Shown piece by piece: positions 42,719-48,094 of a stretch of 64,000 bases of DNA. The position numbers and the translations under genes were made by a program. Every line of letters begins with the position of its first letter. Positions within the stretch are counted from its first letter, which is position 1. The stretch is from Sporocytophaga sp. GTDB lineage: Bacteria; Bacteroidota; Bacteroidia; Cytophagales; Cytophagaceae. Where the stretch lies: the NCBI GenBank assembly GCA_024707265.1, contig JANQAB010000009.1, positions 434,001 to 498,000 on the forward strand, written 5' to 3'. Under the pieces are notes generated by a model that saw only the letters and a list, made by a program, of their open reading frames with translations, did not search any database and was not told the DNA's origin.

Positions 42719-44806
42719 TCAACTTATCCTGCTCCAGTTTAAATCATTTTTGGAGAAAGAATCAATCTGTCGTTTAATATTTTTGTTTTCGTCACTGTCC
42801 AGATTAGGGTCCTTATCAATAATCTCTTCAGCAGCTTTCCTGGCTTCCTTGACGATCGCAGCATCCTGCGATAAGTCCGCAATCATAAGATTAGGCACTC
42901 CGCTTTGTTGTGTCCCCGCAAGATCTCCAGGTCCTCTTAGCTTTAAATCCACATCAGCAATCTCAAATCCATTGTTGGTTTTAACCATTGTCTCTAAACG
43001 CACTTTGCTATCCCGGCTGAGTTTATAATTGGACATAAGTATACAGTATGATTGGTCAGAACCCCTTCCTACACGTCCCCTCAATTGATGTAATTGCGAA
43101 AGACCAAATCTCTCCGCATTTTCAATAACCATTACACTTGCATTGGGAACATTCACACCAACCTCTATAACAGTAGTAGAGACAAGTATTTTAGTTTCTC
43201 CCTTTACAAACCGTTTCATCTCATAGTCTTTTGCATCAGGAGTCATGCGGCCGTGAAGAATCCCAAGCGCATAATCCGGAAAGGCTCTGCTGATGCTTTC
43301 ATATCCATCCATCAAATCTTTAAGATCAAGTGTTTCGCTTTCTTCTATCAATGGATAAACCACATACACCTGACGCCCTTCTTCAATCTGATTTCTCATA
43401 AAGCCGAAAAGTTTTATCCGATCTTTGTCGAACTGATGCATTGTCTTTATTGGCTTTCTTCCTTTCGGCAATTCATCAATCACAGATATATCAAGATCTC
43501 CATAAAGCGTCATGGCCAGGGTCCTTGGGATCGGCGTTGCTGTCATCACGAGTATATGAGGAGGGATTACATTTTTCTTCCAAAGCTTGGCCCGTTGCGC
43601 TACACCAAAACGATGTTGCTCATCAATGATGACAATACCCAGGTTTTTAAACTTAACATTGTCTTCAATGAGTGCATGAGTACCTACTATAAAATTTAAC
43701 CTCCCCTCTTCCAGATCCTTAAAAATAACCTTTCTGTCCTTTTGTTTTGTGGACCCGGTAAGCAAAGCCATTGAAAGTCCAAGCTTGTCAGCGAATTCTT
43801 TTAATCCTTTGAAATGCTGATCTGCAAGGATTTCCGTAGGCGCCATCAATGCTGCCTGAGCTCCGTTATCGACAGCCATAAGCATGCACACAAATGCCAC
43901 AATGGTTTTCCCACTTCCTACATCTCCCTGAAGAAGCCGGTTCATTTGTTTACCTGAACAGAGATCTTTATATATTTCTCTTACAACTCTTTTCTGTGCT
44001 TCCGTAAGGTCAAAAGGCAAGTGATTTTTGTAGAACTCATTCAGTAAAGGAATATTTCTGAAAACCTGACCTTTGAAATTTTCCTTACGCACCAGTTTCT
44101 GCATGAAGAGCCGGAGTTGTATAAAAAACAACTCTTCAAACTTGAGCCTTCGTTTAGCTTCATCAAGTAGCCTTGGAGAACCGGGAAAGTGGATATTTTT
44201 CATTGCTTCTCTTTTTGAAAGAAGCTTATAACGCGTGATCAATTCAGTTGGCAGAGTCTCCTGAATTGAAGGCATTGCTATCTCAAGAAGCTTTTCCTGA
44301 AGTGCTGCAATTGCCCTGCTGTCGAGATGTTTGCGTTTTAGATTTTCAGTACTACTGTAAACCGGCTGTAATCCTTTTTCCAGAGACTTCTCCAAAAACA
44401 GCTCCATCTCGGGATGGACTATATTAATTTTCCCGTTAAAAACATTGGGTTTTCCATAAATCAAATAATCAACGCCTGTCTTTAAGGAACTCACAACCCA
44501 TTTTGCTCCCTGAAACCATACAAGCTCAATAATACCGGTACCATCAGAAAACTCAGCCATGATCCTTTTCTTGGCCATAGAGCCAGCAGAGGACATACCC
44601 GTAATTCTTCCCTTTATCTGAATATAGGGAAGCTCTTCATGGACTTCGGAAATTTTATAGATTTTTGAGCGATCTTCGTACCGGAAAGGATAATGCTGAA
44701 TCAGGTCGGCATAGGTAAATATAGATAGCTCCTTATTCAGAGAAGCTGCCTTCTGCGGACCAATTCCTTTTAAAAATTCGATTCTGGTTTCGAAAAATCC
44801 AGCCAT
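42719..44806 (-). CDS. recG: ATP-dependent DNA helicase RecG
   Basis: 695 residues, full length. RecG unwinds and remodels stalled replication forks and Holliday junctions. It has an N-terminal OB-fold wedge region (about residues 60-150), Walker A GDVGSGKT, the DEQH box in IIIDEQHRFGVAQRAKL, the TATPIPRT motif, and the C-terminal helicase domain with VGVNVPNA and QLRGRVGRG. It ends with the RecG-specific region DVDLKLRGPGDLAGTQQSG. The start ATG reads MAGFFETRIEFLKGIGPQKA, as usual in Bacteroidota. It is downstream of gldD on the same strand with a 54-bp gap. Confidence 0.97.
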   Translation of the reverse strand: MAGFFETRIEFLKGIGPQKAASLNKELSIFTYADLIQHYPFRYEDRSKIYKISEVHEELPYIQIKGRITGMSSAGSMAKKRIMAEFSDGTGIIELVWFQGAKWVVSSLKTGVDYLIYGKPNVFNGKINIVHPEMELFLEKSLEKGLQPVYSSTENLKRKHLDSRAIAALQEKLLEIAMPSIQETLPTELITRYKLLSKREAMKNIHFPGSPRLLDEAKRRLKFEELFFIQLRLFMQKLVRKENFKGQVFRNIPLLNEFYKNHLPFDLTEAQKRVVREIYKDLCSGKQMNRLLQGDVGSGKTIVAFVCMLMAVDNGAQAALMAPTEILADQHFKGLKEFADKLGLSMALLTGSTKQKDRKVIFKDLEEGRLNFIVGTHALIEDNVKFKNLGIVIIDEQHRFGVAQRAKLWKKNVIPPHILVMTATPIPRTLAMTLYGDLDISVIDELPKGRKPIKTMHQFDKDRIKLFGFMRNQIEEGRQVYVVYPLIEESETLDLKDLMDGYESISRAFPDYALGILHGRMTPDAKDYEMKRFVKGETKILVSTTVIEVGVNVPNASVMVIENAERFGLSQLHQLRGRVGRGSDQSYCILMSNYKLSRDSKVRLETMVKTNNGFEIADVDLKLRGPGDLAGTQQSGVPNLMIADLSQDAAIVKEARKAAEEIIDKDPNLDSDENKNIKRQIDSFSKNDLNWSRIS

Positions 44807-44860: not shown

Positions 44861-45460
44861 TTAGTTTTTCCACTCCAAGGTATTCATCATATGAACTATG
44901 TCGTTTTTCATATATTCAATGACGGGAGAAAGGGAGTCATTTTTAGTTGCTGTCCTGAAATACAATGCCCCTCTCAGGAAATGTTTGGTGGAGTCAGTAA
45001 CATAAAACTGAAATTGACTCGGGACTTCACCTTCCAATTCAAAGTAGGTAACATACTTTCCATTATCCGTTTTGGTAACCAACTCATCTATGGAAGTAGC
45101 TTTTTTCTGGTGGCCACCTTTTAACCTGTGAGAGTCAGAAAAGAGTTCGTTTAGGGTTTGTTTATTATTGTGCAGTGGCTTGTAGGTAATCTGCACATTG
45201 CATTTATATTCAGGATAATAAATGTCTATCCAATGGGGCTCAGCAATAGGAGAAGTGTCTTTCAGCACCTCAGCAAATTTCGAAATTTCGAAAGTATAAG
45301 GATGGTCTTCTGTTAACGCTACATACTCCGGCTTAGGAAGATCGATACGGTTGTACCCCTTTGGTTTTGGTGTATATTCATCTTGATCTGTGCAGGAATA
45401 TAATGCAGCTACGGATACAATAACTGATAAAAATTTAGCTGCCTGTTTCGTTAACCTCAT
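44861..45460 (-). CDS. gldD: Gliding motility lipoprotein GldD
   Basis: About 199 residues from the ATG at 45460 (a TTG four codons earlier is possible). The lipoprotein signal ends at SCTDQDEYTPKPKGYNRI; the PKPKGYxRIDLP segment and the end IEYMKNDIVHMMNTLEWKN are characteristic of GldD. It is required for gliding in Flavobacterium johnsoniae and is linked to the T9SS; its precise activity is unknown. Its start overlaps the end of gldE by 26 bp, so the two are translationally coupled. This gldE-gldD order is conserved in the phylum. Confidence 0.92.
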   Translation of the reverse strand: MRLTKQAAKFLSVIVSVAALYSCTDQDEYTPKPKGYNRIDLPKPEYVALTEDHPYTFEISKFAEVLKDTSPIAEPHWIDIYYPEYKCNVQITYKPLHNNKQTLNELFSDSHRLKGGHQKKATSIDELVTKTDNGKYVTYFELEGEVPSQFQFYVTDSTKHFLRGALYFRTATKNDSLSPVIEYMKNDIVHMMNTLEWKN

Positions 45461-46307
45461 TTGCCTCAACAATTGATACTTTTACTTTTTTTATAGTTTT
45501 ATTATTCACGGATTCCACTGTGAAAAGGAATCGTTCAAACATAATTTTATCTCCCAGCTCCGGAAGGTCAGAGTTCAGCTGAAGCAGTAAACCGCCCAGA
45601 GATTCTGCCTCACCTTTCACTTCTTCGAACACAGAAGGATCCAGGTCAAATACTTTACAGAAATCATTAAGAGAAATTTTCCCTTCGAAAAGCCAGGAGT
45701 TATCATTGATCTTAATATAAGTTTGATCTTCTTCGTCAAACTCATCTGCAATTTCTCCTACAATTTCTTCAATAATATCTTCAAGCGTAACCAGCCCGGC
45801 AACTCCTCCATATTCATTCACAACAATAGCCATATGTTGACGCATCTGTTGGAAATCCTTAAGAAGTTCTTCAATTTTTTTTGTTTCGGGTATAAAATAA
45901 GCGGGACGCAAAAGTTTAAGCCAATCAAATTCAGGATTGTCCTGTTCTTTGATATAAGGGAACAAATCCTTTATATTAAGGATACCTTCAACATTGTCAA
46001 TGCCATCCTTGTATACTGGTATTCTTGAGAAACCATGTTTGCTGATTTTTTCTAATACCTCCCCAAATGTCTGTTCAGAACTAAATGCGGTAATATCAAT
46101 GCGGCTCTTCATGATTTGCTTTACCGAAGTTTTACCAAATTTGACCAAACCTTTGATCATTTCCTTTTCTTCAACGGTAGTCTCTTCCCCGGTTGCCGCC
46201 TCAAATTCTTCGTTAATCTTATCTAAGGGTGATTGGTTATTTTTTACCAATCTCTTTTCAAGCAACGACATTGACTTTATTACCCAAGAAAACGGATTAT
46301 AAGCCAT
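45435..46307 (-). CDS. gldE: GldE, CBS/CorC_HlyC part only (membrane domain missing)
   Basis: 290 residues containing a CBS-domain pair (TAFSSEQTFGEVLEKISKHG ... MAIVVNEYGGVAGLVTLEDI) and the C-terminal CorC_HlyC domain, as in gliding protein GldE. A normal GldE has about 440 residues with an N-terminal DUF21 membrane domain. Here only its last residues (AYNPFSWVIKSMSLLEKR) remain. About 200 bp upstream an ATG at 46515 opens MDSDEPGP, the usual start of GldE in this group, but the DNA between does not encode DUF21 in any frame and contains a 61-bp palindrome. This suggests an internal deletion or assembly collapse. GldE acts with GldD. Confidence 0.8.
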   Translation of the reverse strand: MAYNPFSWVIKSMSLLEKRLVKNNQSPLDKINEEFEAATGEETTVEEKEMIKGLVKFGKTSVKQIMKSRIDITAFSSEQTFGEVLEKISKHGFSRIPVYKDGIDNVEGILNIKDLFPYIKEQDNPEFDWLKLLRPAYFIPETKKIEELLKDFQQMRQHMAIVVNEYGGVAGLVTLEDIIEEIVGEIADEFDEEDQTYIKINDNSWLFEGKISLNDFCKVFDLDPSVFEEVKGEAESLGGLLLQLNSDLPELGDKIMFERFLFTVESVNNKTIKKVKVSIVEANEVNETGS

Positions 46308-46350
46308 AATTAGTTGTCATTAATTGTGAACCGTATTGGCAAAAGAATAA

Positions 46351-46411
46351 GTTCCTGAAATTATTTTTATTCAAAACAAGGAACCTTGTCTGGATAAAAA
46401 TAACCAGGAAC
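46351..46411. repeat. 61-bp imperfect palindrome inside the damaged gldE region
   Basis: Arms GTTCCTGaaaTTATTTTTAT and the complementary ATAAAAATAAccAGGAAC flank an inner ACAAGG/CCTTGT pair around a 3-base centre, with a few mismatches. It lies exactly where the DUF21 coding sequence of gldE should be. It could be a small mobile hairpin element, a terminator-like structure or a scar. Confidence 0.65.
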
Positions 46412-46548
46412 TTACAATGAAATCTTTTTGAAATTAATGATTCGATGAAAAAGTCAAGACGCACATAATCTGGTAACTTACATAAATTCGCGGGGCCAGG
46501 TTCATCCGAATCCATATTCTAATTTGTTAAATTAAACTTAAATATTAT

Positions 46549-46983
46549 TTAAAAAGGTAGATCGTCCATATCATCGTCTACTGAAGCGGACTGTGCTACA
46601 GGCTCAGAGCTGTATGAAGCTCTCGCTTCTCCTCCATCTGCCTGCCTTCCTCCACCGCCTCCAAGCATGGACATATTTTGTCCGATAATCTCCGTGGTGT
46701 ATTTTTTCACTCCTTCTTTATCTTCATAAGAACGAGTTCTCAGCTTACCTTCGACATAAAGCTGATTACCTTTTTTCAGATATTTTTCAATTACATCTGC
46801 GATAGGCCCCCAGAAAGACACATTGTGCCATTCGGTTTGTTCTACTCTTTCTCCGTTTTTGTCTTTGTAGACTTCTGAAGTAGCTAAGGTAAAGCTTGCC
46901 ACCTTTCTTCCGGATTCCATTACTCTGATTTCAGGATCCTTCCCAAGGCGTCCTACCAGAATTACTTTGTTTACACCGCTCAT
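46549..46983 (-). CDS. ssb: Single-stranded DNA-binding protein
   Basis: 144 residues. An OB-fold (MSGVNKVILVGRLGKDPEIR, EWHNVSFWGPIADVIEKYLK, LYVEGKLRTRSYEDKEG) binds single-stranded DNA as a tetramer in replication and repair. The Gly-rich linker is short and the acidic tail ends DDMDDLPF, the partner-docking tip used by RecG and other repair enzymes. It lies between mutY and gldE on the minus strand, as in many Bacteroidota. Confidence 0.97.
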   Translation of the reverse strand: MSGVNKVILVGRLGKDPEIRVMESGRKVASFTLATSEVYKDKNGERVEQTEWHNVSFWGPIADVIEKYLKKGNQLYVEGKLRTRSYEDKEGVKKYTTEIIGQNMSMLGGGGGRQADGGEARASYSSEPVAQSASVDDDMDDLPF

Positions 46984-47038: not shown

Positions 47039-48094
47039 TTAAAATTCACATTGCTTCAAAAATCTTTGAATCAAAACCGGTTTTGGAAGGTCATTTATCT
47101 GATTAATAGAGAATTCCTTCATCTCCAAAGCACCCTTTATAGCATTAAATGCAGTCTTTGTATTTACATTTATTATATGTCCCTGGCAAAAAAGTATCTG
47201 ATGGGTTAAAATATGTTTCATCACTTCTGATGACTTTACTATGGTTAATTCATCAGAAGGAAGTTTTTTCAATAATTTTCCTGGATCCAGTATTTTAGTA
47301 GATTCATTATTATAAAATTCATATAATCCCTGCCAGATGTCCTTACTTTTCCTTTCTTTCATTAAAATCTTATCCTTCCATCTAAAAGCCAGGTAATTAA
47401 AGTGTCTGTTCTTTTTTACTATTTTTTTATTTTTCACAGGAAGGGAAGATTGTTCATTTGCTCTGAAAGCATAGCATCGGGCCGAAACCGGACAATCTTC
47501 ACATTTTGGTTTTGCCGGAACACAATGCAAGGCTCCAAATTCCATTATCGCCTGATTGTAAGTGGCAGGATCATTTTGAGGAATTAAAGCATTTGCCAGT
47601 TGGCGAAACTTCTTAACCCCTGAAGGAGAGCCAATATCATCAGTGATTCCAAAAAAACGGGAAAGAACTCTAAAGACATTTCCATCCACCACAGCGACGG
47701 GTTCATTAAATGAAAAAGAGGCAATGGCAGCAGCGGTATATGGACCTACACCTTTAAGTTTTAATAATTCATTATAAGTCTGGGGAAAATTTCCACTATA
47801 TTTTTCCACAATTAATTTTGCGGTTGCATGTAAGTTTCTGGCCCTTGAATAATATCCCAGCCCCTCCCATAATCTCAAAACCTCCCTTTCTTCCGCTTTT
47901 GCCAACTTACTCACATCAGGATATTTATCTATGAATTTGTAAAAATAGGGTAAACCCTGATCGACTCTTGTCTGCTGAAGAAGTATCTCTGAAAGCCATA
48001 TTTTATAAGGATTTTCGGTTTCTCTCCAAGGCAAATCCCGCTTGTTTTTTGAGTACCAGGTAATTAATTCACAAACGAATTCTTTGTTTTCCAC
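47039..48094 (-). CDS. mutY: A/G-specific adenine glycosylase MutY
   Basis: 351 residues. It removes adenine mispaired with 8-oxoguanine. Visible: the helix-hairpin-helix with the catalytic aspartate (LKGVGPYTAAAIASF then VAVVDGNVFRV), the [4Fe-4S] cluster pattern C-x6-C-x2-C-x5-C in CVPAKPKCEDCPVSARC, and a C-terminal Nudix-like recognition domain (RHFNYLAFRWKDKILMKERK). It is of normal length and starts with ATG. The gene precedes ssb and is divergent from the HU gene. Confidence 0.96.
   Translation of the reverse strand: MENKEFVCELITWYSKNKRDLPWRETENPYKIWLSEILLQQTRVDQGLPYFYKFIDKYPDVSKLAKAEEREVLRLWEGLGYYSRARNLHATAKLIVEKYSGNFPQTYNELLKLKGVGPYTAAAIASFSFNEPVAVVDGNVFRVLSRFFGITDDIGSPSGVKKFRQLANALIPQNDPATYNQAIMEFGALHCVPAKPKCEDCPVSARCYAFRANEQSSLPVKNKKIVKKNRHFNYLAFRWKDKILMKERKSKDIWQGLYEFYNNESTKILDPGKLLKKLPSDELTIVKSSEVMKHILTHQILFCQGHIINVNTKTAFNAIKGALEMKEFSINQINDLPKPVLIQRFLKQCEF

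Follow-up and report, generated by a model that had tools for sequence, protein, structure and literature searches.

A GldE protein without its DUF21 membrane domain is kept in Sporocytophaga and relatives

Introduction

The gliding-motility gene gldE of a Sporocytophaga sp. genome encodes a protein that has the CBS and CorC_HlyC domains but not the transmembrane DUF21 domain that precedes them in other GldE proteins, raising the question of whether this reflects an error in the assembly, a gene in decay, or a shortened protein that is still in use. The locus was analysed within a stretch of 64,000 nucleotides, referred to here as the window (G000:C2:434001-498000). The original prediction, made from the letters of the window, had proposed either a deletion associated with a hairpin or a collapse of the assembly, and a gliding and type IX secretion (T9SS) apparatus dependent on a soluble GldE.

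Results

The gldE reading frame (45435..46307, minus strand) encodes a protein of 290 aa with a short N-terminal helix, a CBS pair at about residues 62-183 and CorC_HlyC at residues 199-280. Pfam searches matched only CBS (1.5e-17) and CorC_HlyC (7.8e-17), with no match to CNNM/DUF21 (PF01595) in the protein or elsewhere at the gldE locus, and the frame is open for only three further codons upstream of the start. Against the NCBIfam GldE profile, TIGR03520, the protein aligned to positions 132-407 of 408 (1e-107) with a score of 360.8 bits, lower than the cut-off of 376.05 bits, which applies to the whole protein. The remaining half is nonetheless nearer to GldE than to CorC (1.9e-51) or PaeA (8.3e-38), and its score of 175.1 bits against the CorC profile NF011675 does not reach the cut-off of 379 bits. 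As predicted, the CBS/CorC part is intact and coupled to gldD, the gene for a gliding-motility lipoprotein (44861..45472, minus strand), which was clearly recognised by TIGR03512 (9.6e-69) and whose frame overlaps the end of gldE. The order on the minus strand is mutY (47039-48094, named from HhH-GPD and NUDIX_4 matches), ssb (46549..46983), a 241-nt gap, gldE, gldD and a gene that we take from its translation to be recG (42719-44806). Measured against the full-length GldE of a relative (G008, 451 aa), about 160 residues are missing, rather than the roughly 190 first estimated.

The short form extends well beyond this genome. Three other Sporocytophaga assemblies contain a GldE with 97-98% identity and an identical start of the 290-aa frame, and a TIGR03520 search of the 19 genomes of the family found 14 whose GldE enters the profile at position 116-161, in a frame of 290-321 aa. 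The one full-length GldE in the family, that of G008 (profile positions 2-407), is 58% identical to the window protein over the shared part. Three genomes (G005, G012, and G015) are without gldE, their TIGR03520 matches being only to other CNNM proteins (E ~1e-70), and one that is 69% complete (G011) gave no TIGR03520 match, leaving its state undecided. At the 15 family loci inspected, ssb stands before gldE and gldD after it, an order common to the family; in G005, gldD follows ssb after 170 nt with gldE absent between them, and gldD lies among different genes in G012 and G015. GldD was found in 19 of 19 family genomes and GldL in 18, missing in G016.

This distribution bears directly on whether the missing segment was lost from the assembly rather than from the gene. 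The assembly does contain at least one likely frameshift, as rpoB (G000:C9:749201-753041, outside the window) is split into two frames here and is a single frame of 1299 aa in three congeners, a split that is probably a sequencing or assembly frameshift. Against an error at gldE, however, the short gene is present with different flanks in three further assemblies of the genus and ten of the family, including the single-contig genome G014, which rules out an assembly collapse and leaves a local sequencing error with practically no chance of being the cause. The truncation is real and ancient.

In a class-wide sample of 295 genomes, 226 had a GldE at E<=1e-82, and all 225 of the GldE genes other than that of the window carry DUF21. 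Nine of nine re-examined class GldE proteins start at profile positions 1-6 and 66 of a further 67 at positions 1-4; for the approximately 149 that remain once the window's own and these 76 are set aside (one genome, G306, being in both sets), a start at positions 1-3 was judged by eye. A candidate for a DUF21-less GldE outside the family, in G114 (L252), was rejected, as in this single-contig genome a frameshift separates DUF21 from the CBS half and leaves DUF21 in another frame. Among 80 loci from named genomes, 78 had 146 or more open codons ahead of the match, and the remaining two were a Sporocytophaga locus and one running off its contig. Within the class sample, the DUF21-less form is therefore limited to this family. 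No description of it was found in the GldE literature, an absence that is weak evidence given that most subscription journals lay outside the search.

The gap upstream of gldE contains remnants of the lost part. The start codon of an older GldE, beginning MDSDEPGP, is present at 46515, which is 208 nt ahead of the present gldE start, just as predicted, and it now opens a 72-aa leader ORF (46297..46515, minus strand) that overlaps gldE by 11 nt and belongs to no known protein family. The first 30 nt of this leader (46486..46515, minus strand; MDSDEPGPAN), a relic of the GldE N-terminus, are identical at 29-30 of 30 positions in four Sporocytophaga species, and MDSDEPGP resembles the starts of other GldE proteins, namely LESDDPGAY in G008 and MDDPYPS or LDPEPS elsewhere. 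At the other end, a stretch in the gldE frame immediately before the new ATG (46308..46346, minus strand) matches TIGR03520 positions 116-131, broken by TGA and TAA; across the genus, the profile match extends as far as position 116 or 117, reading over a single TGA and a single TAA. Remnants thus survive from each end of the lost part, which supports an internal deletion.

Between these relics lies a hairpin (minus-strand nt 46415-46347). The predicted palindrome is real (-28.6 kcal/mol, z -6.1 against 200 shuffles), although it extends over about 69 nt and not 61, and the same hairpin in the three congeners gave z of -4.3 to -9.4. In all 4 of the genomes of the genus, a search for further copies recovered the complete palindrome at gldE alone, with a next best match of 25 nt (38 bits), so a dispersed or mobile palindrome of the REP or MITE type was rejected. 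Gap folding in other groups of the family gave z of -2.9 to -6.6 in g2, g5, and g8 and z above 0 in g4 and g7; other genera with the DUF21 loss have different hairpins or none. In-frame relics support a real deletion; the hairpin as its cause is not supported, because it is a single copy and because g4 and g7 share the loss without such a hairpin. Searches for an Rfam family returned only miRNA-type matches of 17-21 bits, compared to gathering scores of 63-100, a scan for intrinsic terminators, which covered the window only, found none there, and covariation gave no support, with one pair changed on both sides and this equalled in 123 of 500 shuffles.

The order of events was examined with a tree of six proteins encoded around rpoB (22 genomes, 3662 columns; G034, G000, G011, G013, and G016 left out). 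G008 falls outside the 14 genomes with a short or absent gldE, with an SH-aLRT of 95 in a quick tree and support of 82/72 in a careful tree, giving moderate support for a single loss. In the careful tree, G005 is the sister of Sporocytophaga (99/100) and G012 and G015 group together (100/100). Parsimony fits one loss of DUF21 followed by two losses of the whole gldE gene. A constraint uniting the 11 short-GldE genomes could not be rejected (p-AU 0.16), and events may therefore have followed a different order.

The short gldE is under purifying selection, with dN of 0.009-0.022 and dS of 0.27-0.46 within the genus (dN/dS ~0.02-0.05). Residues T174, E176, and D177 of the second CBS motif, and also E180, E181, and G184, do not vary among the 10 family members aligned, and T174-x-E176-D177 is presumably the nucleotide-holding site. 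The complete absence of gldE from G005, where gldD comes straight after ssb, and from G012 and G015 might indicate that the short form is a pseudogene in the course of being lost. Set against this are the dN/dS values, the conserved functional residues, and the intact frames in 14 of 14 short-form family genomes that keep gldE, all of which make decay very unlikely.

An AlphaFold2 model built from a 37-row alignment had a mean pLDDT of 78.3, with the CBS and CorC blocks mostly at 84-95 and the blocks of the first 40 residues at 44-53. The first Foldseek match of this model was CorC (4hg0, E 5.6e-23), followed by MtCorB and the CBS domains of bacterial CorC proteins, and phmmer agreed in finding 4hg0 to be the best solved relative (E 2.3e-44), indicating that the fold is CorC-like. 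For a possible membrane anchor formed by an amphipathic N-terminus the picture was mixed, as the N-terminal helical moment lay above that of shuffles (p<0.05) in only 8 of 14 proteins.

The relic at the head of the leader is not peculiar to Sporocytophaga. In the four species of the window genus (g1), the leader start lies 208-211 nt before gldE, and in the four species of g5 it lies 133-139 nt before gldE, always at 1 mod 3; the leaders of both end 11 nt inside gldE (14 nt in G018). In the three species of g8, a leader of 24-26 aa ends 78-82 nt before gldE, and its first 30 nt are identical at 26-28 of 30 positions where gldE four-fold sites are 31-49% identical. The sequences of g1, g5, and g8 fit a putative short leader ORF with early acidic and proline codons; no acidic-proline start was seen by eye in g2, g4, and g7, and the gap of G005, which has no gldE, shows no such leader. 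Gap windows conserved as highly as the leader head numbered 11 of 156 in g8, 45 of 217 in g1 and 48 of 125 in g5, which places the head among the best conserved windows in g8 only; since so many windows match the head in g1 and g5, the whole gap is conserved there. Binomial values for head conservation carry no weight as probabilities, as the head was chosen post hoc, the pairs are non-independent and, in g5, four-fold sites of ssb are highly alike in their own right. Separately, the ssb genes of g5 (G007, G013, G016, and G018) are 73-91% identical at four-fold sites compared to 35-50% for the adjacent gldE, a likeness that may reflect strong codon constraint or a recent exchange of ssb.

In full-length GldE, 32 of 72 loci encode the motif [DE]P.P ahead of the first membrane helix, compared to a shuffled mean of 1.4 and a highest value of 6; this count covers loci L147-L225 less 7 of the 79 (six without an anchor, and one at a contig edge). 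Some of these acidic-proline starts of full-length proteins apparently begin from TTG. The literature searched on GldE contained no remark on such a start.

Discussion

We propose that the ancestor of most of the family (Sporocytophaga, Cytophaga, and relatives) lost the internal piece of gldE encoding the transmembrane DUF21, that a downstream in-frame Met would have become the new start, and that the CBS-pair/CorC_HlyC half would have been retained as a separate protein within the ssb-gldE-gldD row. The loss itself, its spread, the selection on what remains and the CorC-like fold are direct results of the analysis. The short GldE would most likely sense Mg-ATP as a regulator that is soluble or bound peripherally to the membrane, in the manner of enterobacterial CorC, and would not transport ions. 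Its solubility and its Mg-ATP binding are inferred. In the MtCorB report (PMC8242095), ATP binding by the CBS pair is described as likely regulatory, and binding by the short GldE may by analogy be so too; another report (PMC12421838) describes Salmonella CorC as also without a transmembrane domain. Taken as a whole, this explanation is held with fair confidence.

An alternative is that the short GldE acts in trans, forming a mixed dimer with a full-length CNNM paralogue. The genome that contains the window encodes two full-length CNNM proteins, and one or two are present in 17 of the 19 genomes of the family. Most members of the family could form such a dimer; G006 could not, being 99% complete and having a short GldE with no PF01595 match anywhere in the genome, and as a general account the mixed dimer seems improbable.

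The predicted dependence of gliding and T9SS function on a soluble GldE is doubtful, as the three genomes without gldE retain gldD and GldL. Two branches have lost gldE with gldD and GldL kept, showing that it is dispensable in some settings and suggesting that the T9SS motor has no strict requirement for GldE. The family has intact, truncated, and deleted states of gldE side by side, offering a natural test of the role of the CBS/CorC half without a pore and of the need for GldE in gliding or type IX secretion, and it would present a member of a transporter family that has become a free-standing soluble regulator within a known lineage.

The relic upstream of gldE may have been retained as a leader with a regulatory role; its acidic-proline head resembles GldE N-termini and is conserved in three genera. 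A simpler reading, to which we give about an even chance, is that the gap holds only the ssb terminator and the gldE promoter and that the leader ORF is non-functional. Strong hairpins followed by T runs were read by eye in the gaps of g2, g5, and g8, the whole gap rather than the leader alone is conserved in the genus, and the genus leader has dN of 0.035-0.076 and dS of 0.023-0.062, about equal, with no sign of selection at the amino acid level. As dN is not below dS in g1, the leader was rejected as a protein-coding gene. Other features fit this reading poorly: the window hairpin is without a terminator-like T run, leader frame lengths in g1 and g5 differ only by multiples of three and end 11-14 nt inside gldE, and in g8 ATG, GTG, and TTG starts occur at one place before the same ERSxDPYPI. 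Two reports describe ribosomes destabilised by early acidic codons, in mgtL through an EPDP motif (PMC11282234) and in mgtQ through early Asp or Glu codons (PMC8092293). By analogy, the acidic-proline start might have been kept, when the membrane domain was lost, as a separate leader ORF on which faltering ribosomes would refold the hairpin and set GldE-GldD output, a speculative and rather unlikely scheme that, if true, would make GldE N-termini across Bacteroidota a Mg-responsive translation brake.

Among known systems, the full-length GldE of Bacteroidota (TIGR03520) is orthologous to the window protein, shares the ssb-gldE-gldD order and is its best family match, whereas the window GldE is without DUF21 (profile positions 1-131) and scores below the family cut-off. 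Enterobacterial CorC/YbeX (NF011675, PDB 4hg0) is similar in its CBS pair and CorC_HlyC, its length of about 290 aa and its lack of a transmembrane domain, but here DUF21 was lost within the GldE lineage, beside gldD, and the NF011675 score is below cut-off. The CNNM/CorB Mg transporters have homologous CBS-pair and CorC halves, with a CBS fold matching MtCorB and CNNM2-4, but the window GldE lacks the DUF21 pore domain through which they act as transporters. The Mg leaders mgtL, mgtQ, and yoaL are likewise short ORFs that precede a member of a Mg-related gene family, with early acidic codons in mgtL and mgtQ; unlike them, the putative leader described here, recognised from sequence, would descend from the start of the very gene that lies downstream.
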